The translations under genes were made by a program, and so were the position numbers. A stretch of DNA of 64,000 bases, from assembly GCA_002716385.1 (NCBI GenBank), contig PBAX01000025.1:39948-103947 (forward strand), in the 5' to 3' direction. Under the pieces are notes generated by a model. The model saw only the letters and a list, made by a program, of their open reading frames with translations, was not told where the DNA came from and searched no databases. Each line of letters starts with the position of its first letter. The first letter of the stretch is position 1. This document shows positions 6,670 through 40,595 of the stretch, piece by piece. This stretch comes from Phycisphaerae bacterium. GTDB lineage: Bacteria > Planctomycetota > Phycisphaerae > Phycisphaerales > SM1A02.

Positions 6670-7308
6670 CTATCCACCGGGTTGGCCCGGAAGTGATCGA
6701 AGAATGGCTCTCACGGGCGATCCGTCAAAGCCCATGAGCTTCAACGGAAGTGCGATCAACTCGTAGTAGCCTGCCGGAACCTTCTGCAGCTGAAGGGTTT
6801 CGAGAATTCGAACCTCGTTTCTCAAACAGGCGTTGTGACTCAGGAGCTCCTTGCATTGGCACAGATCGACACTGGGCGTGTCGACGCCGATCGTGATCAT
6901 GCCATGTTGAGCAAGATGATCGATGAGCGAAGGATCTGGTGCCGCGAAGTCCTCGTTGAAGATGTTCGGGTCGGGATAGGTGCCGCTGCACAGCAGTATG
7001 CGTGGAGCAAGCATCTCGAAATCGGGTGGCAATGAATCGATTCCATACCGCTCCCCCTTCGAAGCCTTGACATGAACGACCTGGCAGGGCCCGATGAAGT
7101 GCTCGAGCGGTTGTTCTCCGATTCCATCTTCACCAGCCGCATAGTGATTGATCCCGTCCGCATGCGAGCCCAGATGCACGGTGGCCCTGAGGGTGCTGAG
7201 ATTCACGCTGTCTCCCGAATCGATTTTCAGGAGAAGCTCTCTGGACATGGCGGTATCGCCGGGCCAGACGGCCAGTTGCTCTGTGATTGGTGGGCTCAGG
7301 TCGTACAT
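6670..7308 (-). CDS. kynB: Kynurenine formamidase (KynB-type cyclase family)
   Basis: The protein is 212 residues. It hydrolyses N-formylkynurenine to kynurenine and formate, the second step of tryptophan breakdown. The metal-binding pattern of the cyclase/KynB family is visible as H45-LGS-H49-A-D51-GIN-H55, with WPGDTA near the N-terminus and GVDTPSVD, a typical KynB stretch. GGAG lies six bases before the ATG. It is separated by one base from the upstream MFS gene and belongs to the same minus-strand operon as tryptophan 2,3-dioxygenase. It is the bacterial metal-dependent type, not the alpha/beta-hydrolase type of animals. Confidence 0.95.
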   Translation of the reverse strand: MYDLSPPITEQLAVWPGDTAMSRELLLKIDSGDSVNLSTLRATVHLGSHADGINHYAAGEDGIGEQPLEHFIGPCQVVHVKASKGERYGIDSLPPDFEMLAPRILLCSGTYPDPNIFNEDFAAPDPSLIDHLAQHGMITIGVDTPSVDLCQCKELLSHNACLRNEVRILETLQLQKVPAGYYELIALPLKLMGFDGSPVRAILRSLPGQPGG

Positions 7309-7309
7309 G

Positions 7310-8497
7310 TCAGCTCCTGCTGTTGATTCCCTTGGGAATGGTAACCATGAACGCGAGGATCATCGAAACCGCGAAGCAGCCGGCAGCCATCCAGAAGCCG
7401 GCCAGATAGCCCCATCCGACATGGATCATGTAGCCCATGGCGAATGCGCCGCCGGCCATGCTGATGTTGAAGAGAATGGTCAGCCTGCTCCACCACTTGA
7501 TGTGCCCCGCGGGCCCCGCCAACATCAGCACTCGATGCGTGACGGTTGATGCATACCCCATCTGCGCGATACCGAGGACGAATCCGGAGGCGACAGCCAT
7601 CCATACGCCATTCGTGAGCAGGATCATCAATGCGGCGGACAGGCCGATGCCCATGCAGAGAATGAGCGAGATGTAGCGGCCCAGCCATCGGCCCACCAGT
7701 CCTCCCATGATCGGTCCGCCGAGCATGACGCCGGCACCGTAGATCGCATAGACCATCATGCTGAAGCTCAGTGGCTGCTTGAGCACGACATGGATGTACG
7801 CAGCCAGGTAGATCGAGTGCGGAACGATGGCGGCTGCTGCGAAGAGATAGGTGATGCCAAGCAGGATCAGGCGTCCCCGATAGATGGGATGATGATCTGT
7901 GGAAGCGGCTCCGGAATTCCGGCCAGATCGAGTCTTGAGTCCCGGCCAGGCGACGACCAGGCAGACCAGTGTCAAGGCGGCTGTATACAGCCAGCCCATG
8001 GTCGGATCCTCGCCTGCGACGGAAGGAAGCGTCAGACTCAGGATGATGACACCCAGTCCACTACCGGCGAAGACGATGCTGATGAGTTTGCCACGTTGCT
8101 TGTCGGGGATGCCCTGGGCGACCAGTGCCGGTGTGAGGATCATGCCGCCGGCAGCCGTGAGCCCAGCCATGAAGCGACAGCCGGCCAGCCACCATGGACC
8201 GAAGTCGATGGCCGATAGACCGACGCTGATGAAGCCTATGAGCAATGCGGCTCGGCATACGACTCCTCCGCTGAAGCGTTTCGCGAACCAGGCGCAGAGG
8301 AAGGCGCCGATGAAGTTGCCGATGAAATTGACCGTGCCCAGATAGCCGACCTGGGAGCTGGATAGCCAGTCTTGGTCGATCATCGCAGGGACCAGGGGCG
8401 AATAGGCGTATCGCACGAGTCCTATCGACGCAAGCATGCCGAGCATGCAGGCGAACACTCGATACCAGGTTCGGTCACTCAGTTGTGTCATGGACAT
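7310..8497 (-). CDS. MFS transporter, YbfB/YjiJ-like (paralog 1)
   Basis: The protein is about 395 residues with roughly twelve hydrophobic segments and no soluble domain, typical of the major facilitator superfamily. The N-terminal RYAYSPLVPAMI followed by SSSQVGYLG is a YbfB/YjiJ-type signature. The gene overlaps the end of the second MFS gene by 23 bp and is one base from kynB. Two related transporters inside a tryptophan/kynurenine operon suggest uptake or export of tryptophan, kynurenine or an aromatic intermediate (inference). The ATG at 8491 is an alternative start. Confidence 0.88.
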   Translation of the reverse strand: MSMTQLSDRTWYRVFACMLGMLASIGLVRYAYSPLVPAMIDQDWLSSSQVGYLGTVNFIGNFIGAFLCAWFAKRFSGGVVCRAALLIGFISVGLSAIDFGPWWLAGCRFMAGLTAAGGMILTPALVAQGIPDKQRGKLISIVFAGSGLGVIILSLTLPSVAGEDPTMGWLYTAALTLVCLVVAWPGLKTRSGRNSGAASTDHHPIYRGRLILLGITYLFAAAAIVPHSIYLAAYIHVVLKQPLSFSMMVYAIYGAGVMLGGPIMGGLVGRWLGRYISLILCMGIGLSAALMILLTNGVWMAVASGFVLGIAQMGYASTVTHRVLMLAGPAGHIKWWSRLTILFNISMAGGAFAMGYMIHVGWGYLAGFWMAAGCFAVSMILAFMVTIPKGINSRS

Positions 8498-9680
8498 GGA
8501 CCGTTACGGGAACAGGCAGCTTCATGAAAATAGAGATGATCAGCGAAACGGCGAAGGTGATCGCGACAATCGTGAACAATTCCCCGTAATCCAGCCCAAT
8601 TGACATGAGTGCCCCTGAGATGAATGCGCCGAGTGTAAATGTTATGGAAGTCACTATCTTCATGATCTTGAGCCATATCGCTTCAGCGGCAGGCCCGGCA
8701 ATTTCAAGAACGTTGTATGTCTTGAGTGCACTTGTGCCAGAGAAGGAGATTGCCATCAGCAAGCTTGCGGCCAAGCAGACCCAGAGTGTGCTGCTCAGGA
8801 TAATCGCCACTGTGGAGGCCAGCCCGATGGCAATGGCGAGGACGAAGCTGACGTATCGGCCGAAGATCCTGACCAGAAGGTAGTCGCAGGTGATTCCGCC
8901 GATGGTCATTCCGATTCCTATCACCGCGTAATAGGCCGAGCTTGATTCCGCCGGAACCTTGAATAGATCGGATATGTAGGCGGCGAAGTAGATGTAGAAG
9001 GGAGCGGAGGCGAAGGTGATAAGCCCGTAGCAGACACTCAGGAGAATCAGCTGCTTTCGATGGTGGGAATGTGCATGTTTCAATTTCGGGAATTCAGGCG
9101 CCCCCGCTCGGCTATGCAGGCCTGGCCAGGCGATCATGATGCAGACTGCGGTGAGAATCGTGGCCAGGATCCAGCCGTTGGCCGGTGAGCTCACGAGATC
9201 GACGAATGGCATTGGCAGCAAGATGCTGATGATGATGAGCCCGAATCCGCTTCCAAATCCAACAAGGCCGATCAGGGCTCCTCTCGCGCTTCCCCTCACT
9301 CCCTGGGTGATGAGCGAAGTGATGGCTATTGACGAGGCTGCGGTGGAGACACCGGAGAGGAATCGCAGGGCACCAAGCCATATTGGGCCGTAGTCGATCG
9401 CCGAAAGGCCAAGGCTTGCCAGGCCGATCAAGAGAAAGAGTCGGGCGGAAAATCCAAGACTGCGCCTTCTCGCGATGGCCGTGCTCGCGAATGCCCCAAT
9501 GAACAATCCAATGGATGCGGCGGCTGAGATGTACCCAGCCTGGGATTTGCTGATCCATTCATGCTTCAGCATCGATGGAAGAAGGGGACCAAACAGCCCC
9601 ACCATGATGCCTGTGCCTGAAAACATCGCCAGAATGCAGGCCATCGCCCGAAACCAGATTCGCTCGCTCAGTCTGGTCAC
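8475..9680 (-). CDS. MFS transporter, YbfB/YjiJ-like (paralog 2)
   Basis: The protein is 401 residues with about twelve predicted membrane segments. Parallel stretches (LGLSAIDYGPIWL here, VGLSAIDFGPWWL in the neighbour; IAWPGLHSRAG versus VAWPGLKTRSG) show that it and the adjacent gene arose by tandem duplication followed by strong divergence. A His-rich loop (KHAHSHHRK) lies between the two halves. The start codon is GTG, with AGGTT about six bases before it inside the end of the tryptophan dioxygenase gene. The spacing of one base indicates co-transcription. Substrate unknown. Confidence 0.87.
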   Translation of the reverse strand: MTRLSERIWFRAMACILAMFSGTGIMVGLFGPLLPSMLKHEWISKSQAGYISAAASIGLFIGAFASTAIARRRSLGFSARLFLLIGLASLGLSAIDYGPIWLGALRFLSGVSTAASSIAITSLITQGVRGSARGALIGLVGFGSGFGLIIISILLPMPFVDLVSSPANGWILATILTAVCIMIAWPGLHSRAGAPEFPKLKHAHSHHRKQLILLSVCYGLITFASAPFYIYFAAYISDLFKVPAESSSAYYAVIGIGMTIGGITCDYLLVRIFGRYVSFVLAIAIGLASTVAIILSSTLWVCLAASLLMAISFSGTSALKTYNVLEIAGPAAEAIWLKIMKIVTSITFTLGAFISGALMSIGLDYGELFTIVAITFAVSLIISIFMKLPVPVTVHVHDTTE

Positions 9681-9681
9681 G

Positions 9682-10479
9682 CTAGAACCTGTGGCGGATG
9701 GCCCAGAGATCCGGGAATACGGGTTCGAAGAGCGTGCTCTCGAGATACTTCACGCCGGGCGAACCGCCCGTTCCATGCTTCCCGCCGATGGTTCGTCGCA
9801 CGAGCTGCACATGGCGATATCGCCACTCCTGGAGCCCTTCATCGATATCGAGCATGAGTTCGAAGAGGTTGACCATCTCGGGCGATTCCTGCGAAAGCTT
9901 CACCAGTAGATCCTGAACACACTCGTTGGGCTCATATCGCTGCGCAATGTCGCGGTCGAGCACCTCTGACGGGAACTCACCGCCTCGACTGGCCAGGAAG
10001 GAATGGAAGTCGTCGATGAGGGATGGCTGCTTCAATCGTTCCATGGCGACATCCCGGCCATGCATTCCCTCCGGCATGTACTTGAGCACCTCTTCACGCT
10101 TGAGTCCGAGCCTGAATTCGATTTCCCTGAACTGCATGGACTGGAATCCGGATGCGGTGTCCAGACGATCCCTGAACGAGACGAAGGACTCCGGAGTCAT
10201 GGTCTCGAGGATGTCGACTTGTCCGACGATGGTCTTGAGGATCATCCGGACTCGCTTCAGCAGGTTGTAGACGCCCCACAGATCGCCTTCGCGAAAACGG
10301 GCGCCGGCAAGATCGAGTTCATGCAGCATCTGCTTGAACCAGAGCTCATGTACCTGATGGATGATGATGAACAGTGTCTCATCATGCTCCGGCGGGTTCG
10401 AGCGTGGCTGCTGGATATCTAGGAGCTGGTCGATATGCAGATAGCTTGCGTAGGTGAGTTGTTCTGTCTTGGGTGGCAT
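9682..10479 (-). CDS. kynA: Tryptophan 2,3-dioxygenase
   Basis: The protein is 265 residues. This heme enzyme opens the indole ring of L-tryptophan with O2 to give N-formylkynurenine. Family marks are HQVHELWFKQ (H41 is the active-site His of bacterial TDO), RVRMILKTIVGQVDILETMTP, and the C-terminal RRTIGGKHGTGGSPG substrate loop preceded by EWRYRHVQ, whose His is the expected proximal heme ligand. It lies 19 bp downstream of the kynurenine monooxygenase gene on the same strand and directly upstream of two transporters and kynB. Confidence 0.97.
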   Translation of the reverse strand: MPPKTEQLTYASYLHIDQLLDIQQPRSNPPEHDETLFIIIHQVHELWFKQMLHELDLAGARFREGDLWGVYNLLKRVRMILKTIVGQVDILETMTPESFVSFRDRLDTASGFQSMQFREIEFRLGLKREEVLKYMPEGMHGRDVAMERLKQPSLIDDFHSFLASRGGEFPSEVLDRDIAQRYEPNECVQDLLVKLSQESPEMVNLFELMLDIDEGLQEWRYRHVQLVRRTIGGKHGTGGSPGVKYLESTLFEPVFPDLWAIRHRF

Positions 10480-10498
10480 GGATGGAACCTACTAACTC

Positions 10499-11851
10499 TC
10501 AGACTATGATGCCTCCAAGAAAGCCGACCATGAGCAGGATGACGGCCAGCACGACCAATGGGACGGTCCTGACAAGTTGTCTTCGGCGTTCCTGGCGACG
10601 GGTGATGTCGCTGTATGGAGTGGTTGAGAAGGAAACGAGGTTGTACACGGGCTGGACGTAGGCAGGCATGACCCGATGCAGCCGGCGTTCCAGCTTCTGG
10701 ACAAGGCGGAACATGGTCGAATTGACCTTGTCCCTCATGATGAGGAAGTTCTCCATGCTCAGTTGGGCGATGGCGTCGCCGTTGGGCTTCTGCTCCCGGC
10801 TGAATTCCCGTATGGCCTGCTTGATGTCACGCCCGTGCTTCCTGAGATGCTTCTGGAGAACCAGGCAATCCTGGAAGGCGGCATTCATCCCCTGCCCGTA
10901 GAACGGGACGATGGCATGGGCCGCGTCGCCGAGGAGGACGGCGTGATCTCCGCAGTACCAGCGATCGCATGAGATCGTGACGAGATTGCCCACGGGGTTC
11001 TCCCGACAGTCCTCGACCAGAGTAGGCATGAGATCGACGGCATCCGGGTAGATGTCTCTGATGAATTCGGTCGGATCATCGGCCGAATCGAGCGACTGGA
11101 AGCTCGTGCCTTCACCTTCGCGTGGCCAGAAGAGCGTGCAGGTGAAGCTCTTGTCCGTATTGGGCAGCGCGATCATCATTGAGGCGCCACGAGGCCAGAT
11201 GTGAAGCGCATCGGGATCGATCGCGTACTCCCCGGATGGTGTCGGTGGTATCACCAGTTCCTTGTAGCCATGGGATATGAAGGACTGGCTGAAACCGAAC
11301 CCCCCCTTGTCGGACGATCTCTGCATCGCGCTGCGAATCGCGGAATACGCGCCATCGGCGCCGACGATGAGATCGGCCTTGATGGTCCGTGTCTCGTTGT
11401 CGTGAGCATGTTGGACAGTGACCTCTCCGGACTGGAAGTCGACATCCACGATCGGTTCCTCGAAATGCAGGGTGACATGCTCATGTTTCGCGGCCTGCTC
11501 GAGCAGCCGGAGGTTCAGGTCGCCTCGTGAAACGGAGTTGATGGCCTCGGCGGGGTCTGAGCTGTACGGATGAAAGCTCTCCTGCCCTTCGGCGGAATGA
11601 AGAATCCGTCCCTTCATCGGAATGGCCATCGTCTCCATGACGTGCTCACGCAGTCCGATCCTCTCAAGCGCCTCGAGGCCGCGGTTGGACAGCGCCAGAT
11701 TGATCGAACGGCCACCGAGGAATCCACGGCGGCGTGGATCGGAACGACGTTCGTAGACCGAGACCCGATGGCCATCCTGGGCCAGAAGACTCGCGAGCAG
11801 ACTCCCGGCAAGCCCAGCACCTCCGATGACGACATGGAGTCCTTCGCTCAT
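10499..11851 (-). CDS. kmo: Kynurenine 3-monooxygenase with C-terminal membrane helix
   Basis: The protein is 450 residues. This FAD/NADPH hydroxylase makes 3-hydroxykynurenine from kynurenine. Seen: the dinucleotide motif GGAGLAGS, the KMO-typical GGRSINLALSNRG, the second FAD motif GDAAHAIVPFYGQGMNAAF, and a late region ending in a basic stretch (RRQERRRQ) plus a hydrophobic helix covering about the last 22 residues. A C-terminal membrane anchor is known for mitochondrial KMO, so this bacterial form may also sit on the inner membrane. It overlaps kynureninase by four bases (ATGA). Confidence 0.95.
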   Translation of the reverse strand: MSEGLHVVIGGAGLAGSLLASLLAQDGHRVSVYERRSDPRRRGFLGGRSINLALSNRGLEALERIGLREHVMETMAIPMKGRILHSAEGQESFHPYSSDPAEAINSVSRGDLNLRLLEQAAKHEHVTLHFEEPIVDVDFQSGEVTVQHAHDNETRTIKADLIVGADGAYSAIRSAMQRSSDKGGFGFSQSFISHGYKELVIPPTPSGEYAIDPDALHIWPRGASMMIALPNTDKSFTCTLFWPREGEGTSFQSLDSADDPTEFIRDIYPDAVDLMPTLVEDCRENPVGNLVTISCDRWYCGDHAVLLGDAAHAIVPFYGQGMNAAFQDCLVLQKHLRKHGRDIKQAIREFSREQKPNGDAIAQLSMENFLIMRDKVNSTMFRLVQKLERRLHRVMPAYVQPVYNLVSFSTTPYSDITRRQERRRQLVRTVPLVVLAVILLMVGFLGGIIV

Positions 11852-13143
11852 GGATCAGGAGTTCCGAATCGGTCGCCCATGAGCATCGCGAACTTCCAGC
11901 AGTCATGGAAACTGTTGTACATCGGTGTCGGGGCGATTCTGACAACGTTGGGAGGCCGGAAGTCGGCGACGACGCCGCACTCCTCGATGGTGGCGAAGGC
12001 CTCGGTCGCATCACCGTCGACCACTATCGAGAGCTGGCATCCGTGCTCGTCGTCAGCGTCGGGGGTGATGATCCGATATCGACGTCCCGGCCTCGATTCG
12101 AGCATCGAGCGGAGATAGCCGGTGAGTCTCAATGAGCGTTCACGAAGTGCTGCCATGCCGACCCCGTCGAAGAGTTCGAGGGATGCTCGCAAGGGTGCCA
12201 TGGCGAGTATCGGCGGATTGCTCATCTGCCAGGACTCGACATTGGAGACCGGCACGAATTGATCCTGAAGATGCATCTGGAAGCGAGTGTCCGGATCATT
12301 GCCCCACCAGCCTGCGAGCCTTGGGATATCCGGATTGGAAGCATGACGCTCATGCACATAGGCTCCAGCGATCGCACCCGGCGACGCATTGAGATATTTG
12401 TAGGAGCACCAGGCGGCGAAATCGACCTCCCAATCGTGAAGATTGAGGATGATGTTGCCGGCCGCATGGGCGAGATCGAATCCGACCATGGCCCCTGCCC
12501 GATGACCGGCTTCGGTGATGGCGGGCATGTCGAGAACCTGGCCGGTCAGGAAGTTCAGTCCGCCCATCATCACGGTGGCGATCTCATCACCATGCGACTC
12601 GATCGTCTCGATGATGTCGGATGTCCTGAGTGTCTCCTCTCCGTCTCGTGGCCCCACTTCCATTATCACGTCATCAGGGTCGAGGCCGCGGGCCTTCACG
12701 TGGCTCTGCAGGCAGTAGATGTCCGAGGGAAACGCCGGGGATTCCATGAGGATTCGTCGTCTCTGGCCCTCTGGTCGGTAGAAGCTGGTCAGCAGCAGAT
12801 GGAGATTCACCGTCAGGGAGTTCATCATGACCACTTCGCCTGATCGGGCGCCGACAAGGCGGGCCCCCGTCTCTCGGAAATGCTCGTGATAGGGATACCA
12901 GGGAGCGGATCCATTCCGGTGTCCATGGACACCACGGGCGGCCCAGCTGGTCATCACTTCATTCACATGATCCACGGCCCTTCGAGGTTGAAGCCCGAGG
13001 GAGTTTCCGCAGAAGTACAGGACGGGTTCGCCATTCGGGCCAGCGGGAATGCTGAACTCCTCTCTCAGCGAGGAGAGCGGATCGGCCTGATCGAGTGCGA
13101 TGGCGGACGCTTCATCCTGTGACACGTCATCAAGCATCGTCAT
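11848..13143 (-). CDS. kynU: Kynureninase
   Basis: The protein is about 431 residues. This PLP enzyme cleaves 3-hydroxykynurenine to 3-hydroxyanthranilate and alanine. Marks: YFCGNSLGLQP near the N-terminus, WYPYHEHFR, the cofactor Asp and His in GFDLAHAAGN, the PLP Lys in WCSYKYLNASPG (about residue 249), and RLAGWWGND. The ATG at 13143 is preferred over the TTG at 13167 because AAAGAGG lies about six bases upstream. It overlaps the ACMSD gene by 14 bp and the monooxygenase gene by four. Together with ACMSD this points to the 3-hydroxyanthranilate branch and not the anthranilate branch. Confidence 0.97.
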   Translation of the reverse strand: MTMLDDVSQDEASAIALDQADPLSSLREEFSIPAGPNGEPVLYFCGNSLGLQPRRAVDHVNEVMTSWAARGVHGHRNGSAPWYPYHEHFRETGARLVGARSGEVVMMNSLTVNLHLLLTSFYRPEGQRRRILMESPAFPSDIYCLQSHVKARGLDPDDVIMEVGPRDGEETLRTSDIIETIESHGDEIATVMMGGLNFLTGQVLDMPAITEAGHRAGAMVGFDLAHAAGNIILNLHDWEVDFAAWCSYKYLNASPGAIAGAYVHERHASNPDIPRLAGWWGNDPDTRFQMHLQDQFVPVSNVESWQMSNPPILAMAPLRASLELFDGVGMAALRERSLRLTGYLRSMLESRPGRRYRIITPDADDEHGCQLSIVVDGDATEAFATIEECGVVADFRPPNVVRIAPTPMYNSFHDCWKFAMLMGDRFGTPDP

Positions 13144-14173
13144 GGACAACCTCTTTGGTGTCGGCAAGGAAGGTGGACGCGTTCAGACCGAGGAACTCGA
13201 GTGCGGTTCCCGAGAGGATTCGATCTCTTGTACGCGGGTCGAGAGACATGGATTCGATCAGCTGTCCGGGGACGGCTTCTCCCAGAGGGAACGGGTAGTC
13301 GCTGCCGAGCGCAACGCGATCGGCTCCCATCACCTCGATGAGGAGCTGGAGAGTGTCGGCATCGTGAACAAGTGAATCGACATAGCAGCGACGAAGCAGT
13401 TCCCTGGGCGAGACCTTCGAGTCGATGCCGCACAGATCGGGACGGACATCGAATCCGTGTTGTATCCGACCGATCGTGAATGGAGTCGATCCTCCGCCAT
13501 GGGCAAAGGCGATCCTGAGCCCCTCGAGTTTCTCGAGCACGCCACCCATCATGAGCGAGGCCATGGCCGTCGCGGTTTCCGCAGGCATGCCCACCAGCCA
13601 GGGAAGCCAGTACTTGGGATGGCGGTCCTTGCCGAGCATCTCCCATGGATGGACGAATATGGAGGCATCGAGATCGCGAGCGGCTTCGAGCACCGCGACC
13701 ACGCCTGGATCGTCGAGGTTGGCTCCGTTGATGTTCGTACCGATCTGTATGCCGGGCATACCGAGCTCCTTGACGCACCGCTCGAGTTCCCTGATCGCCA
13801 GATCAGGAGACTGCATGGGAACGTTTCCCAGTCCCACGAATCGGGTGGGATAGGTCGAGACCACGCCGGCCATGTGGTCGTTGAGAAGCATGGAGAGGTC
13901 CAAGGCGTGCTCGGGCTCGGCCCAGTAGGTGAACATGATCGGCACGGTGGAGAGGACCTGGACGCGGACGCCTGCCTGGTCGCAATCCGACAGTCGAACC
14001 ACTGGATCCCAGCTATTCGACTCGATCTCGCGAAAAAAATTATCACCGACCATCATCTTGGCTGAGCATGATTGCTGGTGCTCCAGACGGACCCAGTCGC
14101 CGCATCCGTAGCGTTCAGCCAGATCCGGCCACTTCTCGGGAAGTATGTGTGTATGGAGGTCTATCTTGAGCAC
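13130..14173 (-). CDS. 2-amino-3-carboxymuconate-6-semialdehyde decarboxylase (ACMSD)
   Basis: The protein is about 347 residues, an amidohydrolase-fold Zn enzyme that decarboxylates ACMS to 2-aminomuconate semialdehyde and so steers carbon away from quinolinate/NAD. Visible: H7 and H9 in DLHTHILPE, FVHPWEM, KYWLPWLVGMPAET, CFAHGGG-like IAFAHGGG, and GSDYPFPLGE with the metal-binding Asp. These stretches are close to the animal and Pseudomonas enzymes. The GTG at 14173 gives the expected N-terminus, and a TAGAAT hexamer ends seven bases before it, so the transcript may be leaderless. The longer frame to 14332 has no family-like residues. First gene of the minus-strand tryptophan operon. Confidence 0.95.
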   Translation of the reverse strand: MLKIDLHTHILPEKWPDLAERYGCGDWVRLEHQQSCSAKMMVGDNFFREIESNSWDPVVRLSDCDQAGVRVQVLSTVPIMFTYWAEPEHALDLSMLLNDHMAGVVSTYPTRFVGLGNVPMQSPDLAIRELERCVKELGMPGIQIGTNINGANLDDPGVVAVLEAARDLDASIFVHPWEMLGKDRHPKYWLPWLVGMPAETATAMASLMMGGVLEKLEGLRIAFAHGGGSTPFTIGRIQHGFDVRPDLCGIDSKVSPRELLRRCYVDSLVHDADTLQLLIEVMGADRVALGSDYPFPLGEAVPGQLIESMSLDPRTRDRILSGTALEFLGLNASTFLADTKEVVHDDA

Positions 14174-33897: not shown

Positions 33898-34998
33898 ATG
33901 AAGCATCTGCTCGATCTGACACTTGATGAGTTCAGTGACTCCTGCATTGACGCGGGCCGTCCGGGCTATCTTGCCAAGCAGGTCTTCAACTGGATCTACC
34001 AGAAGAACGTTGTCGATTTCCAGTCGATGACAAACGTCTCCAAGGCCGACAGGCAGTGGCTCGAGTCCAGCTACCGCATTCTGCGAAGCCGAGTTGATCG
34101 TTTCCAGCAGGCGACCGATGGGACCATCAAGCTTCTTCTTGGATGGGATCCGCCTCAGGATGGCTCCCTGCCCCTGATGTCCGGAGAGGGCGAACTTCGA
34201 CAGACCGAAACAGTCATGATTCCCGCCGCGAAACGGCGGACGGCCTGCGTATCCTCGCAGGTGGGTTGCCCGGTCGGGTGCCGCTTCTGTGCCTCTGGCC
34301 TCGGGGGGCTGGAGGGCAACTTGTCCGCCGGACAGATAATCGAGCAGGTGCTCCGGCTCACCATGGATGACGACGTCGATCGAATCACGAACATCGTGTT
34401 CATGGGGATGGGCGAACCTCTCGCGAACGAGAGTGCGGTGACTCGCGCCATACGAATCCTGAACGCTTCCTGGGGAATGGGAATCGGGGCCCGTCACATA
34501 ACGGTCTCAACCGTCGGGCTTCCAAAAGCCATCAGGCGATTCGCCAAGTTTGATCTTCCGGTGACGCTGGCATTGAGCCTTCATGCTCCGAACGATGAAC
34601 TCAGGAGATCGCTCATCCCATGGGCGGACTATTCGACCGTCGACGAACTTCTTTCAGCCTGCCAGAAGTGGTTCGATGTCAGCGGGCGTGAGATAACGCT
34701 TGAATATCTCCTCCTGCGCGAAGTCAATGACCGCACGGAACATGCCAGACAACTGGCCCGCATCGCCTCGACCCTGCGATCAAGCGTCAATCTGATCCGC
34801 TACAACGAAGTCAAGGGGCTTCCGTACCAGCGGCCATCGACCGTCGACGTCAGGGAATTCCAGCGAATCCTGAGGCGTCACGGCGTGCGAGCGACGATTC
34901 GAGCCAGTCGCGGTCGGGATATCGCGGCCGCTTGCGGCCAGCTTCGATATGAACAGCGGTCAAAGCGGGCTAGCCCCCAGCCAGACTCACGCACATGA
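33898..34998 (+). CDS. rlmN: Dual-specificity rRNA/tRNA adenine C2-methyltransferase RlmN
   Basis: The protein is 366 residues, a radical-SAM enzyme with the cluster motif CPVGCRFCASG, the N-terminal helical domain (PGYLAKQVFNWIYQK), the GMGEPL SAM motif, and the C-terminal RASRGRDIAAACGQL with its methyl-carrying Cys. It methylates A2503 of 23S rRNA. It starts five bases after ispH, so the two are co-transcribed. Its end overlaps a convergent membrane-protein gene by 29 bp. Confidence 0.95.
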   Translation: MKHLLDLTLDEFSDSCIDAGRPGYLAKQVFNWIYQKNVVDFQSMTNVSKADRQWLESSYRILRSRVDRFQQATDGTIKLLLGWDPPQDGSLPLMSGEGELRQTETVMIPAAKRRTACVSSQVGCPVGCRFCASGLGGLEGNLSAGQIIEQVLRLTMDDDVDRITNIVFMGMGEPLANESAVTRAIRILNASWGMGIGARHITVSTVGLPKAIRRFAKFDLPVTLALSLHAPNDELRRSLIPWADYSTVDELLSACQKWFDVSGREITLEYLLLREVNDRTEHARQLARIASTLRSSVNLIRYNEVKGLPYQRPSTVDVREFQRILRRHGVRATIRASRGRDIAAACGQLRYEQRSKRASPQPDSRT

Positions 34999-35275
34999 TC
35001 ACGAACCAGATCACGCTGCTGCAGGCGCCAAGAGACATGGCGGCGATGCCCAGTAGCAGTCCGGCTCGTTGAAGCCCGTGTCCCTCCAGCCGTTCGTCAG
35101 ATTCCAGCTGGATCGCCGCTTGCTGCGAGCGAAAGAACGCCATCCATCCGAGGACGAAACCGATGATCGGGGCCAGGCACAGGAAGATGGCGATGACGCC
35201 ATAGACAACGGCGGGCGTCGCGCTTGGCGCTAACCCTCGGATAGGGTCACTCGGGGTTTCAGGCTGACTCATCAT
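34970..35275 (-). CDS. Small DUF4190-like membrane protein
   Basis: The protein is 101 residues with two hydrophobic hairpins (YGVIAIFLCLAPIIGFVLGW and LLLGIAAMSLGACSSVIWFV) and a Pro-rich N-terminus. The layout resembles DUF4190-type proteins, whose function is unknown. It overlaps the end of the large oxidoreductase-like gene by 17 bp and is the last gene of a three-gene minus-strand unit (HAD phosphatase, oxidoreductase-like protein, this). Confidence 0.65.
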   Translation of the reverse strand: MMSQPETPSDPIRGLAPSATPAVVYGVIAIFLCLAPIIGFVLGWMAFFRSQQAAIQLESDERLEGHGLQRAGLLLGIAAMSLGACSSVIWFVIMCVSLAGG

Positions 35276-38200
35276 GGCGATCTCGAAGTAGGTCTCTCAA
35301 CCGTTCAGGATTGATTATTCTCAATCTCCCATCAAGCGCCATGTCGTGAAGTTCCTGCATCGCATTGAGCCAACGATCATAGTCTTCCTCTGCACCCGTG
35401 GCGGCACGCAGCAGAATCTCCTCGACGAGGCGTCGAACCTGACGGTCTCTCCGGGTGGCTCTCCAGGAAGTCGGAAGCACATGCCTGCCGGCCGCCAGTA
35501 TTCTCGCCAGCCAGTCGCTCGTACGCAGGTCGATCCGGAACCTCCATCTGGCAAGCGTCAGTTCAAGTCGAGTCAGATAACGAGCCTCCACGACATCTCC
35601 ACGTGCGAGATGCACATTCAGTCGCTGGCGAGTGTGGCGTCTGTGTTCACTGCTTACTACCATGGATGCCAGATAGATCGAGTCCCGGGCCAGGCAAGCT
35701 TCAGCCAATGGGAGTATCGCCTTGCAGGTCAATGCACGACCGGTGTCAGCCCGATCCGCGTTGTAGAGCGCGACGACGGCATCTGCAAATCGTTCTGCGT
35801 AGTCAAAACCCCCCCATGTGACGCAGCGACGCAGCGCGACGGCCAGATCGCAATAGGCCTCTCGCCCCGCCTCGGTCTCATTCAGATCCGGAATGTCGTA
35901 GTAGACACGCTGGGTAAGTCGAGCAAACCGTTCCGAACGACCACGTGTCCCCATTCGATGCTTGCCCAGGGACGGGGTCTTCTGCCGCCGAAGGAATCGC
36001 TCGGCGGTCTCGGCGTTGGGATCCTCGCCCGGACGACGCAGCCCGCTGGAATGCTCGGCAAAATGGCGTCCGAGCGTGAATGCCTCGAGAGATCTTGCAT
36101 AGCCAGCTGATTCCATTTCCTGCAGGGCTGATTCAAGAGAGTCCGCACTCAGCGGAACGGCGCCCATCTGGAAAGCCGTTCCAAGCTGGGCGAGATCGGC
36201 CAGTCGCTCGTTATGGAAACGCCATCTGCAAAGATCGGTGTAGTCCTCAATCACCTGACCCTCAGGATGCAGGAGTTCGCGGAAGTAGTTGGCAATCTCC
36301 GATGTTGACTGCGATGCGACCTCTCGATCCATCTGGTCTTCAAACAGGCCGATGTTGATCACGCCACGAGTCCTGCCGGCGGCGGCAACCCGGAGTGACT
36401 CGTCGGGACTGACTGACAACAAGCCCTGCACACGATCAAGTGAAAGCAGGAGATCGGCCTCCCCCCATGGAATCGTGGCACCAATGGTGGCCGCCTCCTC
36501 ATCCGATCGTGGTCTGGAGAAGGAGACCTGGGCCCATGCTCGACGGCCGGCACCGATGGGAGCGGGAAGCATCCTTGCCTGGACGTGATAGCCCATCCGG
36601 GTTCCCGCAATCAGCAGCACGCGAGCGGCAAGTCCGGGAGACTTGCCTCGTAGGCCGGCGATATGTACGGACCATGATGCCGAATCCGCATGGATGGGCG
36701 TTGGAGGCTTGAGCCGCCTGTCCCGATCGGTCAGCGTTCTGATAGGTGGGCGACTGCGATGGACCTCGACCTGCTCGACGAGCAACTTGACACGCCCTCC
36801 CAGTCGGGGAGGCCATCTCCAGACGACGGGATCTCGACTAGTTCTCGTTTCCAGCGCGGCGGCATGACGTACGGCCTCGACTTCAAGTTCAGCGAGCATG
36901 GGAGGCTGCCTGATGACACAGGCCCGGTCTGCTGGCCAGACGATTCTCTGCATCGGCTGGAATCCCTGGCGGTCCACCTGAACCATTTCCGATTCGATTG
37001 AACTGACGTCGAACCTGGTGGGTGGACCATCATCAATGATGATGACCACCAGCCCCGATTCGTAGAGGGATTCTCGCAACATCCTTCGAAGTCGACTTGT
37101 CTCGGCAAGCGTTCCTCGCTTGATGTGGATCTGGTCCGCATGATCGGCGGGCACAGCGGCTCGTGCCAGCCTTTCGAGGTCGACACGCGAAGGCCCATGC
37201 GGCTGTGCAACAAGCAGGATCCAGGATTCCGTGGACAGTGCCGCCTGCCTGACAGCGGCCGCACCATGTCGGAAGAATGCCGGCCCGGAAAACGTCTCGA
37301 CATACACAGGCCTGCCTTCGACGGGCCCCATGGCCTCGCCATCAAGAAAGAGTCTGATTGGTGACTGGTCCCGCATTGGCTCGCCTTCAACGGCCTCGAC
37401 GTCGTCAGAATCGGGCGAGTCACTGTCGATGGCATCGATCAGGGTGGTCGCGAGTCGTCGTACCGCCTCATGCTGACCGGCTGATCCGAATCTTTCCATG
37501 AGCACAGGCACGGGAAGCGCCGGCGGCTCCTCCTGGAATTCCTCCCTGATGACATCGTCTGTGGCGAATTCCCGAAGAAGATGCTGGAGCTTCCTCAACA
37601 GACTCGAAGGATGCAGGGCTTCACGGAATTCAAATCCATCCGAGTGGCCGTCCTCATCGGGTGGCAGCGATTCGCCCCAGACGAGTGCGGGCTTGCCACC
37701 ATTGCTTCTGAGATCCTCGGCGATCCGAAGGACCTCACGTTCGACGGTTCCCGGACGAGGTTCAAGCACGACGACGTTCTTGCATCGTTTCAGGATTCTG
37801 GCCACGGCCGCCTCATCCATGGGATGAAGAACGCCGAGATGAAGCGCCGGTACCTTTCCGGAGATGCCGAGGATCATCGCCATGTGACGCAAGGCGCGAT
37901 CGGCCGGACCAACGGTCACGAAACCGATCGAGATGGCTTCTCCGGGTGAGGGTAGCGCACGCCATGAGTTGAGTTCGAGACGGCGAGCCATTCTCAGCGG
38001 CCCCCCTGTTTCCTGCCATCGAGGGCGACGACGTCTTCGATGCCTCATGGGATCATCTACATCCTCTTCACCTCGATTGGCCCGGAGAGTCACGGACTCG
38101 GTGTTTCGCAGAACGCTGCGATCCACAACGACAGCCGCCATCCCCTTGTCCGAGCGACTGATCCGCAGGACATTCTCGACAGAGTCCCTGAGATGCGGGA

Positions 38201-38669
38201 CATCACGTGCTTCCAGGACAGGGATGTTCCGACGAGCCAGCCTCCCGCGTATGTCGACGGCGGAGTTGTTCAGCGCCAGATCCTCGACAAGGAGGCCAAG
38301 GGCGGCGCCCTCGGGCAACGGGCGTGAATTGGATTCAAGCAGGCTCAACGCGGCTGGGACAGTTGGGCCCGTGAGGACAGCGATCACATGCTGCCCCTGA
38401 CGGGCTGCCCAGGAGGCCATCTGTGCCGCCCGCCCCGCATCCGCCATCCGATCGAGACGGATGCGATGCATCCTGAGCAATTCGGAAGTGTCCGGATTGG
38501 ACTGTATGTCATCGAGGTCGGCGGTAGCCTGCGATGCCACATAGACCACTCGCTGCACACTCGGAAGACATTCCAGTGCGCCTTTCAGAATGGCCTCGGC
38601 GGCAGACAGGGTGGTCGTGCCGGAATGTCGCCAGATCGCATGTTCCGGAGGCACGCTGGAGCTCATCAT
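35259..38669 (-). CDS. Degenerate fused indolepyruvate:ferredoxin oxidoreductase-like protein (probable pseudoenzyme)
   Basis: The protein is 1136 residues, close to the roughly 1150-1190 of fused IOR enzymes. Seen in order: an alpha-like N-terminal region (about 1-200), an Arg-rich linker (RHRRRRRPRW), a transketolase-C-like region (about 235-370, HLGVLHPMDEAAV), a TPP-domain-like region (about 440-555) where FFRHGAAAVRQA replaces the family GDSTFFHSG-type motif, a gamma-domain-like region (about 665-850, AGLRGKSPGLAARVLL, GEADLLLSLDRVQGL, FQMGAVPLS), and a C-terminal helical region resembling that of large IORs. Between 560 and 660 there is one Cys only, so no Fe-S motifs. Catalysis of the usual kind is unlikely. 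Role unknown. Confidence 0.6.
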   Translation of the reverse strand: MMSSSVPPEHAIWRHSGTTTLSAAEAILKGALECLPSVQRVVYVASQATADLDDIQSNPDTSELLRMHRIRLDRMADAGRAAQMASWAARQGQHVIAVLTGPTVPAALSLLESNSRPLPEGAALGLLVEDLALNNSAVDIRGRLARRNIPVLEARDVPHLRDSVENVLRISRSDKGMAAVVVDRSVLRNTESVTLRANRGEEDVDDPMRHRRRRRPRWQETGGPLRMARRLELNSWRALPSPGEAISIGFVTVGPADRALRHMAMILGISGKVPALHLGVLHPMDEAAVARILKRCKNVVVLEPRPGTVEREVLRIAEDLRSNGGKPALVWGESLPPDEDGHSDGFEFREALHPSSLLRKLQHLLREFATDDVIREEFQEEPPALPVPVLMERFGSAGQHEAVRRLATTLIDAIDSDSPDSDDVEAVEGEPMRDQSPIRLFLDGEAMGPVEGRPVYVETFSGPAFFRHGAAAVRQAALSTESWILLVAQPHGPSRVDLERLARAAVPADHADQIHIKRGTLAETSRLRRMLRESLYESGLVVIIIDDGPPTRFDVSSIESEMVQVDRQGFQPMQRIVWPADRACVIRQPPMLAELEVEAVRHAAALETRTSRDPVVWRWPPRLGGRVKLLVEQVEVHRSRPPIRTLTDRDRRLKPPTPIHADSASWSVHIAGLRGKSPGLAARVLLIAGTRMGYHVQARMLPAPIGAGRRAWAQVSFSRPRSDEEAATIGATIPWGEADLLLSLDRVQGLLSVSPDESLRVAAAGRTRGVINIGLFEDQMDREVASQSTSEIANYFRELLHPEGQVIEDYTDLCRWRFHNERLADLAQLGTAFQMGAVPLSADSLESALQEMESAGYARSLEAFTLGRHFAEHSSGLRRPGEDPNAETAERFLRRQKTPSLGKHRMGTRGRSERFARLTQRVYYDIPDLNETEAGREAYCDLAVALRRCVTWGGFDYAERFADAVVALYNADRADTGRALTCKAILPLAEACLARDSIYLASMVVSSEHRRHTRQRLNVHLARGDVVEARYLTRLELTLARWRFRIDLRTSDWLARILAAGRHVLPTSWRATRRDRQVRRLVEEILLRAATGAEEDYDRWLNAMQELHDMALDGRLRIINPERLRDLLRDRHDESA

Positions 38670-39526
38670 GACCCTTCATCCATCAGGAGTTCGATTGCAT
38701 GGGCCACGCCGTCCTCATCATGGGATCGTGTTGTCCGATCAGCCACAGCCAGAACAGACTGGTCCGCGTTCTCAACGGCAATGCCCACACCGGCACCGGC
38801 CAGCAACTCGATGTCATTGAGCCCATCGCCTATGGCGGCGACTTTTTCGACGTTGATTCCGCAGCCATGGCAATACTGCGACACCATGGTCCACTTGTTG
38901 ACGCCATGCATGAAGATTTCGAGCATGTGAACGCACTCTCCGCTCCTGCCAACGGCTGGCCAGTGACGCCAGAATACACGATCGCCAAGCACGGCCTGTA
39001 TCGCCTCGGCTGCCATCGCCATTTCTTCTGGTGTTCCAAGACTCGCGATGCGCAGCGTGGATTCGATCGAGTCATCCTGAGCAAGATCATCTATATGGCG
39101 ACATCGAACGCCATGCAGATCCAACCACCAGCTGGAGGTGGGATGCATCCTGTCTGAATCTATGATCGTGTAGTCGACGTCGGCGACATGTCTGTCCTTC
39201 AGCAACATGACGCTATGGCCCAGCGACTGCAACGTTGATGCGGCAAGCAGGGTGTCTTCTTGCTGAAGAGGCGTGCTGTGCAACGTCATTCCGCTTGGCC
39301 AATCAACCAACGCGGCTCCACTGGCGATGACAAGTGGTCCGGTGTAGCCGATCGCATCCAGCGTTCCAATGCATTCCATGTGGGTCCGGCCCGTGGCGAT
39401 CATCACTTCGATGCCGACCCGTCGGGCCGCAGCGAGCGACTCCCGATTGGCTTGGGACACCTGGCCACGTGGACACAGGAGTGTGCCGTCAAGATCCACC
39501 ACGAGCAAGCTGGGAATGCCGTTCAT
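38666..39526 (-). CDS. Cof-type HAD-superfamily phosphatase
   Basis: The protein is about 286 residues. HAD motifs: VVDLDGTLL (nucleophile Asp), IATGRTH, and GDGLNDIELLAGAGVGIAVENA with the Mg-binding Asp pair; the large C2-type cap is typical of Cof/YidA sugar-phosphate phosphatases. The ATG at 39526 is preferred over a TTG at 39562. The stop overlaps the start of the large IOR-like gene (ATGA), so the two are translationally coupled. Substrate unknown. Confidence 0.85.
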   Translation of the reverse strand: MNGIPSLLVVDLDGTLLCPRGQVSQANRESLAAARRVGIEVMIATGRTHMECIGTLDAIGYTGPLVIASGAALVDWPSGMTLHSTPLQQEDTLLAASTLQSLGHSVMLLKDRHVADVDYTIIDSDRMHPTSSWWLDLHGVRCRHIDDLAQDDSIESTLRIASLGTPEEMAMAAEAIQAVLGDRVFWRHWPAVGRSGECVHMLEIFMHGVNKWTMVSQYCHGCGINVEKVAAIGDGLNDIELLAGAGVGIAVENADQSVLAVADRTTRSHDEDGVAHAIELLMDEGS

Positions 39527-39623
39527 CAGCCGGACACTACGCTGTCGTGCAGACAGGGGCAACTCTGAAACAAGAACGATGCCAACCTGCTACGCTCAAG
39601 GCTGTCATGCCGAGCGCCCTGAC

Positions 39624-40595
39624 ATGAGAAACGAAAGCAATTCAGGCAACCGCCAGCTGGCGGACATGCTCCTTCCCCATCTCTATCGAGCATGCAATGG
39701 TCATCTCGGGGATGTCAACTGGTTTCGCGCCGACTGGCAGCGAGGCGGCGCCGCCACGGGCCGGGCAACATGGCGAGCCAGCGATGGAAGCGAGCATGAT
39801 GTCATGGTCAAGTTTCCAATCAGGGCACGCGAGTTGCTCTGGATGAGAAGGCTTCAGCATCCGCAGGGTGATCTCAAGCCGGTCGTGCCTCATGTCTATG
39901 CTTCCGGCAGCAGTCTGGAATCCTACGATCTCGCCTGGATCGTCATTGAATGGCTTCCATATGGCCCGCTTGGAAAACGGTGGCACGCCGATCATGTCTC
40001 AAGGACAGTCGAAGCAGTCACTCGCTTCCATGAGGAGGCGGACGCCTTCGTGGTAGATCAGGAGAAAGCACGGGTTGAGGATTGGAATGCCTTGTGCGAA
40101 AATTCTGTCCGAAGCATCAAGCGAAACCACATTGCCGAAGAGGCCAGATGGCTCGGCTTGCTGGACAGGCTCCAGGAAAATCTCCCAAGCATGGTAGAAC
40201 GATGGAGGTCCCGTGATGCTGACCACTGGATACATGGAGATCTGCATCTGGCCAATGCCATGAGCCGTGTGGCCGCCGAAAGCGGCGAGGTGACCTTGAT
40301 CGATCTGGCCGAAGTAAGACCCGGCCACTGGATCGAGGATGCGGTCTTCCTTGAAAGGCGCCTCTGGGCACGCCCTGAAAGACTTGAGGCGACCAGACCG
40401 GTCAAGGCCATGGCCGAGACCAGAATCGCACGGGGGCTCTCAGTCCAGAAGACGTATGAAACACTTGCCGATATTCGCCGAGCCTTGATGGCCTCCACGG
40501 CCCCTGCCTTCATGAAGACCGAGGGCCACCCCAAATTCCTCTCAGCCTGCCGTAATCAGCTGACAAGCGCCCTGGATCGCCTTCAGGAAGACTGA
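39624..40595 (+). CDS. Phosphotransferase of the APH/choline-kinase-like fold
   Basis: The protein is about 323 residues. The kinase-like motif HWIHGDLHLANAM carries the catalytic Asp and metal-binding Asn, followed by LIDLAEVRPGHWIEDAV (the DFG-equivalent Asp). A nucleotide-loop Lys is plausible in HDVMVKFPIRAREL. The family phosphorylates small hydroxylated molecules, so antibiotic resistance need not be meant. No Shine-Dalgarno site is obvious. The frame continues upstream but without family-like residues. It is divergent from the HAD phosphatase. Confidence 0.75.
   Translation: MRNESNSGNRQLADMLLPHLYRACNGHLGDVNWFRADWQRGGAATGRATWRASDGSEHDVMVKFPIRARELLWMRRLQHPQGDLKPVVPHVYASGSSLESYDLAWIVIEWLPYGPLGKRWHADHVSRTVEAVTRFHEEADAFVVDQEKARVEDWNALCENSVRSIKRNHIAEEARWLGLLDRLQENLPSMVERWRSRDADHWIHGDLHLANAMSRVAAESGEVTLIDLAEVRPGHWIEDAVFLERRLWARPERLEATRPVKAMAETRIARGLSVQKTYETLADIRRALMASTAPAFMKTEGHPKFLSACRNQLTSALDRLQED

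Follow-up and report, generated by a model that had tools for sequence, protein, structure and literature searches.

A family of fused indolepyruvate oxidoreductase-like proteins in Phycisphaerales that appears to lack TPP and Fe-S sites

The closest described relatives of the protein analysed here are the fused indolepyruvate:ferredoxin oxidoreductases (IORs; PRK13030/PRK13029, with PF01558, PF02775, and PF20169), which are fused 2-oxoacid:ferredoxin oxidoreductases (OFORs). In an OFOR study (PMC5020499), a Glu, a Gly-Asp-Gly, and an Asn are given roles in the use of thiamine pyrophosphate (TPP), domain II of the S. tokodaii OFOR lies at subunit interfaces, and its domain III is modelled as holding ferredoxin. 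I analysed a gene (the focal gene) in a 64,000-nucleotide stretch of contig PBAX01000025.1 of a Phycisphaerae bacterium (GCA_002716385.1), which is called the window below. Its product (the focal protein) looks like an IOR descendant in which the TPP-activating Glu and the Gly-Asp pair are gone and a single Fe-S cysteine is left. It may well be a non-catalytic dimeric scaffold for docking or regulation, a role for which the chances seem about even.

An earlier reading of the DNA (the sequence-only reading) had taken the domain order and length as those of a fused OFOR, and both the sequence matches and the predicted fold agree with this descent. The NCBIfam profile PRK13030 matches residues 652-974 with an E-value of 3.6e-15, at 54.7 bits against a curated cut-off of 816; since a canonical protein, P0087, also scores under this cut-off (467.8 bits), the cut-off is a weak criterion of membership. 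The IOR_alpha profile matches residues 244-322 (E 5e-4), and a Pfam search of the focal protein gave no family at E<=1. Apart from the canonical P0087, 85 homologs were found at 33-90% identity. The protein has the OFOR order of PYR-like domain, domain II, PP-like domain, gamma domain, and DUF6537-like helical domain. The predicted model matches the OFOR fold. Identity to the known structures 9bt4, 6n2n, 7plm, and 6cip (pyruvate or 2-oxoglutarate:ferredoxin oxidoreductases) is 9-13%; these are presumably all TPP and Fe-S enzymes, and the title of 6cip names TPP. As judged from alignment and model, the focal protein is a descendant of the fused IORs, which it resembles in domain order, length class, predicted fold, and the homology of its gamma and DUF6537 domains. 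In contrast to them, its family lacks the TPP Glu, the Gly-Asp pair, and CPGC, and it has only one of seven cysteines in the ferredoxin-like region, a shorter PP domain, and a reversed pattern of conservation. The label 'Pyruvate/2-oxoacid:ferredoxin oxidoreductase gamma subunit', which is present on these proteins, does not prove an OFOR.

Cofactor landmarks

The landmarks were scored in 18 alignment columns over 46 canonical rows (with every third of P0088-P0206 taken) and 88 family rows, of which 84 came from the set of family proteins and four from additional loci of the family. The family rows represent 87 distinct proteins, because P0083 is counted again as L092 with an upstream extension, and the fragments P0085 and P0086 are omitted. 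Each landmark is kept in 45-46 of the 46 canonical rows, whereas a family row keeps two of the 18 at most. The TPP-activating Glu is found in 45/46 canonical rows and in none of the 88 family rows (focal residue 78 is Ala). Also absent from all 88 are the CPGC cysteines, the Asp and Cys of GDTGC, and the Thr and His of TGH, while the His following FF remains in two rows and the Asn of the Mg-diphosphate motif in six (46/46 canonical). At the GDS/GDG motif, whose Gly and Asp are each present in 46/46 canonical rows, the family has the Gly in 18/88, the Asp in 2/88, and the two jointly in none. The first cysteine of the ferredoxin-like region is kept in 71/88 family rows and the other six in 0/88; the roles of the cysteines, including which of them bind which 4Fe-4S cluster, are assumed here. 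In the gamma domain, a glycine of the glycine loop is replaced by R674 in 86/88 rows and a later glycine by R709 in 83/88.

In the focal protein itself, the PP-like domain is without the CPGCPH, HGDTGC, GDS/GDG, Asn, and TGH motifs, and a whole PP segment is deleted in the alignment. The sequence-only reading had noticed FFRHG in place of GDSTFFHSG, a single Cys in the Fe-S region, and FQMGAVPLS before the last domain. The alignment supports all three: FFRHG falls on the first motif, C584 is the only one of the seven cysteines left (the entire protein has eight), and FQMGAVPLS (residues 833-841) aligns with the canonical WQLGLIPVS. The motif losses it described extend to all 88 rows and are not confined to the window copy. 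By the alignment, the catalytic residues are lost in the whole family, and the focal protein would bind neither TPP nor an Fe-S cluster. It is very improbable that the protein remains an OFOR in which residues not recognised as such bind TPP and Fe-S. The OFOR-like fold and C584 would fit this, and an entry in the reference list of PMC5020499 concerns glyoxylate carboligase, a TPP enzyme without the usual Glu. However, the Glu, the Gly-Asp pair, the CPGC motif, and six cysteines of the ferredoxin-like region are lost jointly, together with the PP segment.

Occurrence, selection, and descent

Is this a damaged copy or a conserved family? In the A1 scan of the phylum, matches were found in 45/392 genomes, including 10/10 of f1, the family to which the window belongs, probably SM1A02 in Phycisphaerales; most of the matches from beyond the class are weak and limited to one part. 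In the scan of the order, 164/301 genomes have a match, and among the matches listed 115 are in f1 and 49 outside it. Thus 115 of the 117 listed f1 genomes have a relative, some of them partial at contig ends. The two misses, G624 and G648 (86% and 92% complete), are those among the listed genomes without a match, and they are taken as the only f1 misses because that list runs by kinship. Homologs with the same losses exist in other Phycisphaerae, as the sequence-only reading had suggested looking for.

The ratio of nonsynonymous to synonymous divergence (dN/dS) of the focal gene is 0.051 against L001 (dN 0.079, dS 1.55) and 0.090 against L003. Against L001, the values are 0.026 for the PYR region, 0.028 for gamma, and 0.127 for the neighbouring HAD gene. 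The calculation is complete for L001-L003, and the ratios are only approximate because dS is high: it approaches saturation, and most of L002 and L004 is saturated. The focal gene is under purifying selection, with a dN/dS of about 0.05, and the claim that selection rather than decay keeps the frame holds. Decay or assembly error was rejected and has practically no probability left. In its favour, four of the listed f1 matches (G598, G430, G588, and G534) have one in-frame stop each; against it, the remaining listed f1 matches have none, the same losses recur in 88 rows, and the ratio and the occurrence in f1 are as given above. A very large redox-enzyme scaffold without its cofactor-binding sets is near-universal in the sampled family, which means that OFORs can be co-opted away from redox chemistry. 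In genus g278 (L103-L106; G612 and G496), with genomes of 2.0 Mb, the protein is further reduced, with frames of 1065 and 1037 residues.

No intact paralog was found in the window's genome (G000) by searches with PF20169 and PF01558. PF20169 gave no match at E<=1, the focal gene included, and PF01558 gave a single further gene, which lies on contig C19 close to a TPP_enzyme_C gene. This pair (G000:C19:12885-15322) is probably a working two-subunit OFOR, separate from the focal gene. A DUF6537 match was found in 14 f1 genomes and in 10 of them located inside the focal-family gene; the DUF6537-positive G663, G664, G667, and G668 are absent from the order scan and were judged by frame length only. 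In the f5 genome G394, the DUF6537 match (C1:2154668-2155180) lies in a frame of only 326 residues, and the gene there may be split.

The tree, rooted on four plasmid-borne IORs (Streptomyces, Rhodococcus, Sphingobium, and Variovorax), was built from the gamma and C-terminal columns of 46 rows; P0048, P0079, P0106, P0160, P0207, P0216, P0229, and P0232 were left out to keep it small. It recovers f1 with 100/100 support. The cofactor-less f1, f5, and L086 form one clade (96/86) nested among intact enzymes, and f1 and f5 alone group with 94/72, which is not starred; long branches lower the confidence in this inner order. Intact homologs do exist, all of them outside the clade, and the suspicion that they would expose the window copy as a one-off fails. 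The sister of the clade is L083 (joint support 99/97), a divergent fused IOR of G111 (frame 6869-10714) that keeps 16/18 landmarks and is a possible intermediate. The f5-type and L086-type proteins (P0207-P0222 and L084-L086) are, like the focal family, cofactor-less in the 11 rows examined and belong to the same clade, but they have neither R674 nor R709, and a search of L084-L086 did not find the HAD/RlmN/IspH neighbourhood that the focal gene has. Phycisphaerales thus holds canonical, near-intact divergent (L083), and three cofactor-less forms (f1, f5, and L086), so that a route from enzyme to pseudoenzyme is traceable in sequence.

It is fairly likely that TPP and Fe-S were lost once and that a radiation followed. 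The result would be an OFOR without any redox cofactors that is near-core throughout a bacterial family, with its working surface shifted from the TPP cleft to domain II, gamma, and DUF6537 and with a new job as scaffold, regulator, or new enzyme. It would be the first cofactor-free OFOR family. In the literature searched by title and abstract opening, with subscription papers mostly outside, I found no cofactor-less OFOR and no pseudoenzyme of the OFOR superfamily; nor was an account of DUF6537 found in the literature searched, with the same papers mostly outside. Pseudoenzymes are a recognised general class. The family resembles them in its retained enzyme fold, missing catalytic residues, and purifying selection, and would be a new pseudoenzyme family of known fold with a presumably non-catalytic role.

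Conserved surfaces and proposed role

The conservation of the domains was compared in sampled pairs, which are not independent of each other. Among canonical enzymes, conservation is highest in PYR and PP (0.67) and lowest in domain II (0.44). In the family, the leading parts are domain II (0.45), gamma (0.43), and the C-terminal domain (0.42), and PYR (0.32) and PP (0.30) come last. At overall identities of 0.4-0.5, PYR and PP exceed the other three domains in 125/125 canonical pairs and in 0/881 family pairs. Since the parts kept are domain II, the gamma wing, and the C-terminal helical domain, and not the cleft, I infer a docking or regulatory scaffold. In such a scaffold, the TPP cleft between PYR and PP would no longer be kept for TPP work. 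Dimerisation as in OFORs would be retained, with domain II taking part. The gamma wing, which I take to be the counterpart of the ferredoxin-holding domain III of S. tokodaii, would hold a partner protein together with the C-terminal domain. The first partner to consider is the HAD phosphatase, a co-translated product proposed from gene coupling only.

Several observations weigh against the scaffold. At identities of 0.6-0.75, PYR and PP exceed the other domains in 275/276 canonical pairs but also in 6/79 family pairs. Between close relatives, PYR is as constrained as gamma (the 0.026 and 0.028 above). The 34 near-invariant positions specific to the family, many of them charged (R80, E458, D566, R291, R674, R709, and R822), could equally belong to a new active or ligand site. 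Finally, family-specific invariants are not significantly enriched near the old cofactor loops (5/33, p 0.079).

Some of these observations bear on the main rival, a new enzyme that has refitted the OFOR scaffold with an active site of invariant Arg, Asp, and Glu, without TPP or Fe-S; I regard it as possible but distinctly less probable. Of 91 near-invariant focal positions, 39 are common with the canonical enzymes and 34 are specific to the family and rich in Arg, Asp, and Glu. Seven of the specific ones (R80, E232, R291, E458, D566, H660, and R822) are found in 88/88 rows, 11 of the 33 tested are Arg, and the PYR region is under strong purifying selection too. On the other hand, conservation in the family is lowest in PYR and PP, and the lack of significant clustering at the old loops speaks against a renewed site there.

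Gene layout and neighbourhood

The frame, described as intact over 3.4 kb, is so, and the gene is on the minus strand (Table 1); the plus strand of the same interval is interrupted by stops. Beyond the membrane-protein gene, RlmN and IspH lie on the opposite strand, followed by HpnC/D/E-like genes, whose names in the window were given by reading and not by profile test.

Table 1. Features of the focal gene and its neighbours in the window.
Feature	Residues	Positions	Strand	Basis or remark
Focal gene, cofactor-less fused IOR-like protein P0001, 1136 aa		35259..38669	minus	ATG start, no internal stop
PYR-like domain	14-200	38070..38630	minus	alignment with canonical IORs; model matches OFOR and DXS chains
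Domain II (transketolase C-like)	230-376	37542..37982	minus	alignment and model; among best-conserved parts
PP-like domain, shortened	395-620	36810..37487	minus	alignment
SGPAFFRHG in place of GDSTFFHSG	461-469	37263..37289	minus	alignment; FFRHG at residues 465-469
C584, sole cysteine left of seven in the ferredoxin-like region	584	36918..36920	minus	kept in 71/88 family rows
Gamma-like domain	661-835	36165..36689	minus	PRK13030 match and alignment
DUF6537-like helical C-terminal domain	836-1136	35262..36164	minus	aligned to canonical DUF6537 proteins; separate model, pLDDT 86.6
Cof-type HAD-IIB phosphatase, 298 aa		38666..39562	minus, upstream of focal gene	PF08282, E 1.1e-43
Small two-hairpin membrane protein		34970..35275	minus	overlaps focal 3' end; weak DUF4190/CCC_membrane similarity
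APH-like kinase		39369-40595	divergent from HAD	listed frame overlaps HAD 5' part

Synteny, which is conserved across 80 loci, was compared over the window and 80 loci retained from 109 confirmed ones; some of these 81 are cut by contig ends. Relatives of HAD are found in 77, RlmN in 75, TPR in 71, IspH in 70, RluD in 65, HpnC in 47, HpnD in 46, HpnE in 43, the APH-like kinase in 40, and the membrane protein in six. The sequence-only reading had the focal gene coupled to both the HAD phosphatase and the membrane protein. For HAD this stands, since its stop and the focal start share a four-base ATGA overlap in the window; the membrane protein, with a relative in only 6/81 loci, is rather a lineage feature outside the conserved unit. 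In 68 of the 77 loci, HAD is upstream of the focal gene and in the same orientation, and a four-base overlap is possible in 32; such overlap counts are upper bounds because the focal start was set at whichever start codon is closest to the HAD stop. In nine loci (L030, L040, L044-L048, L057, and L059), HAD is divergent from the focal gene. The window HAD scores 150.3 bits with PF08282 (gathering threshold 20.9) and 134.8 with the Cof subfamily, just under the cut-off of 137, and the catalytic motifs are intact (DxDGT type in 76/77 loci, GDxxND in 77/77).

HAD as the partner of the scaffold meets difficulties of its own. Its adjacency is barely above that of RlmN, and no HAD adjoins the focal relative in L016, L021, and L095. 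The genome of L095 (G368) carries a homolog elsewhere, unlinked to the focal gene, and HAD homologs are also present in G002 and G034, two f2 genomes in which no focal relative was found with A1. In 54 loci, the partial rate correlation with the focal gene (HAD 0.28, RlmN 0.30, and IspH 0.47) does not single HAD out.

The coupling to a phosphatase gene would also suit a metabolite sensor, whose gamma domain or emptied TPP cleft binds a 2-oxoacid, an acyl-CoA, or a phosphate compound and signals to a partner. The glycine loop retains G672 and G679 in 88/88 rows, and the R674 that it gains could bind an anion. However, the five commonest family states at the position of the Lys in the canonical KGxxxRxGG loop do not include Lys, the Arg of the loop is left in 2/88 rows, no tested feature indicates a particular ligand, and HAD homologs occur also where no focal relative was found. 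The sensor is an unlikely reading, and the scaffold fits better because conservation has left the cofactor cleft and is now strongest in domain II, gamma, and the C-terminal domain.

Even less likely is a cofactor-free protein whose gamma wing docks ferredoxin and serves Fe-S enzymes such as IspH and RlmN, which are presumably ferredoxin-dependent. Their frequency near the focal gene and the top rate correlation of IspH would agree with this, as would the ferredoxin model of S. tokodaii domain III in PMC5020499. Yet many unrelated genes share the synteny, IspH and RlmN are on the opposite strand and hence on a separate transcript, and the cysteines for electron transfer are gone.

In the relatives outside f1 (L083-L091), the neighbourhood of the focal gene was not found by tblastn (E<=1e-4) in the stretches searched. 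In L086, a frame of 1153 residues (10264-13722) joins E1 dehydrogenase alpha, transketolase-like E1 beta, a lipoyl domain, and beta-ketoacyl-ACP synthase III; it adjoins the cofactor-less IOR relative of G342, and its product may make branched acyl primers as a single chain.

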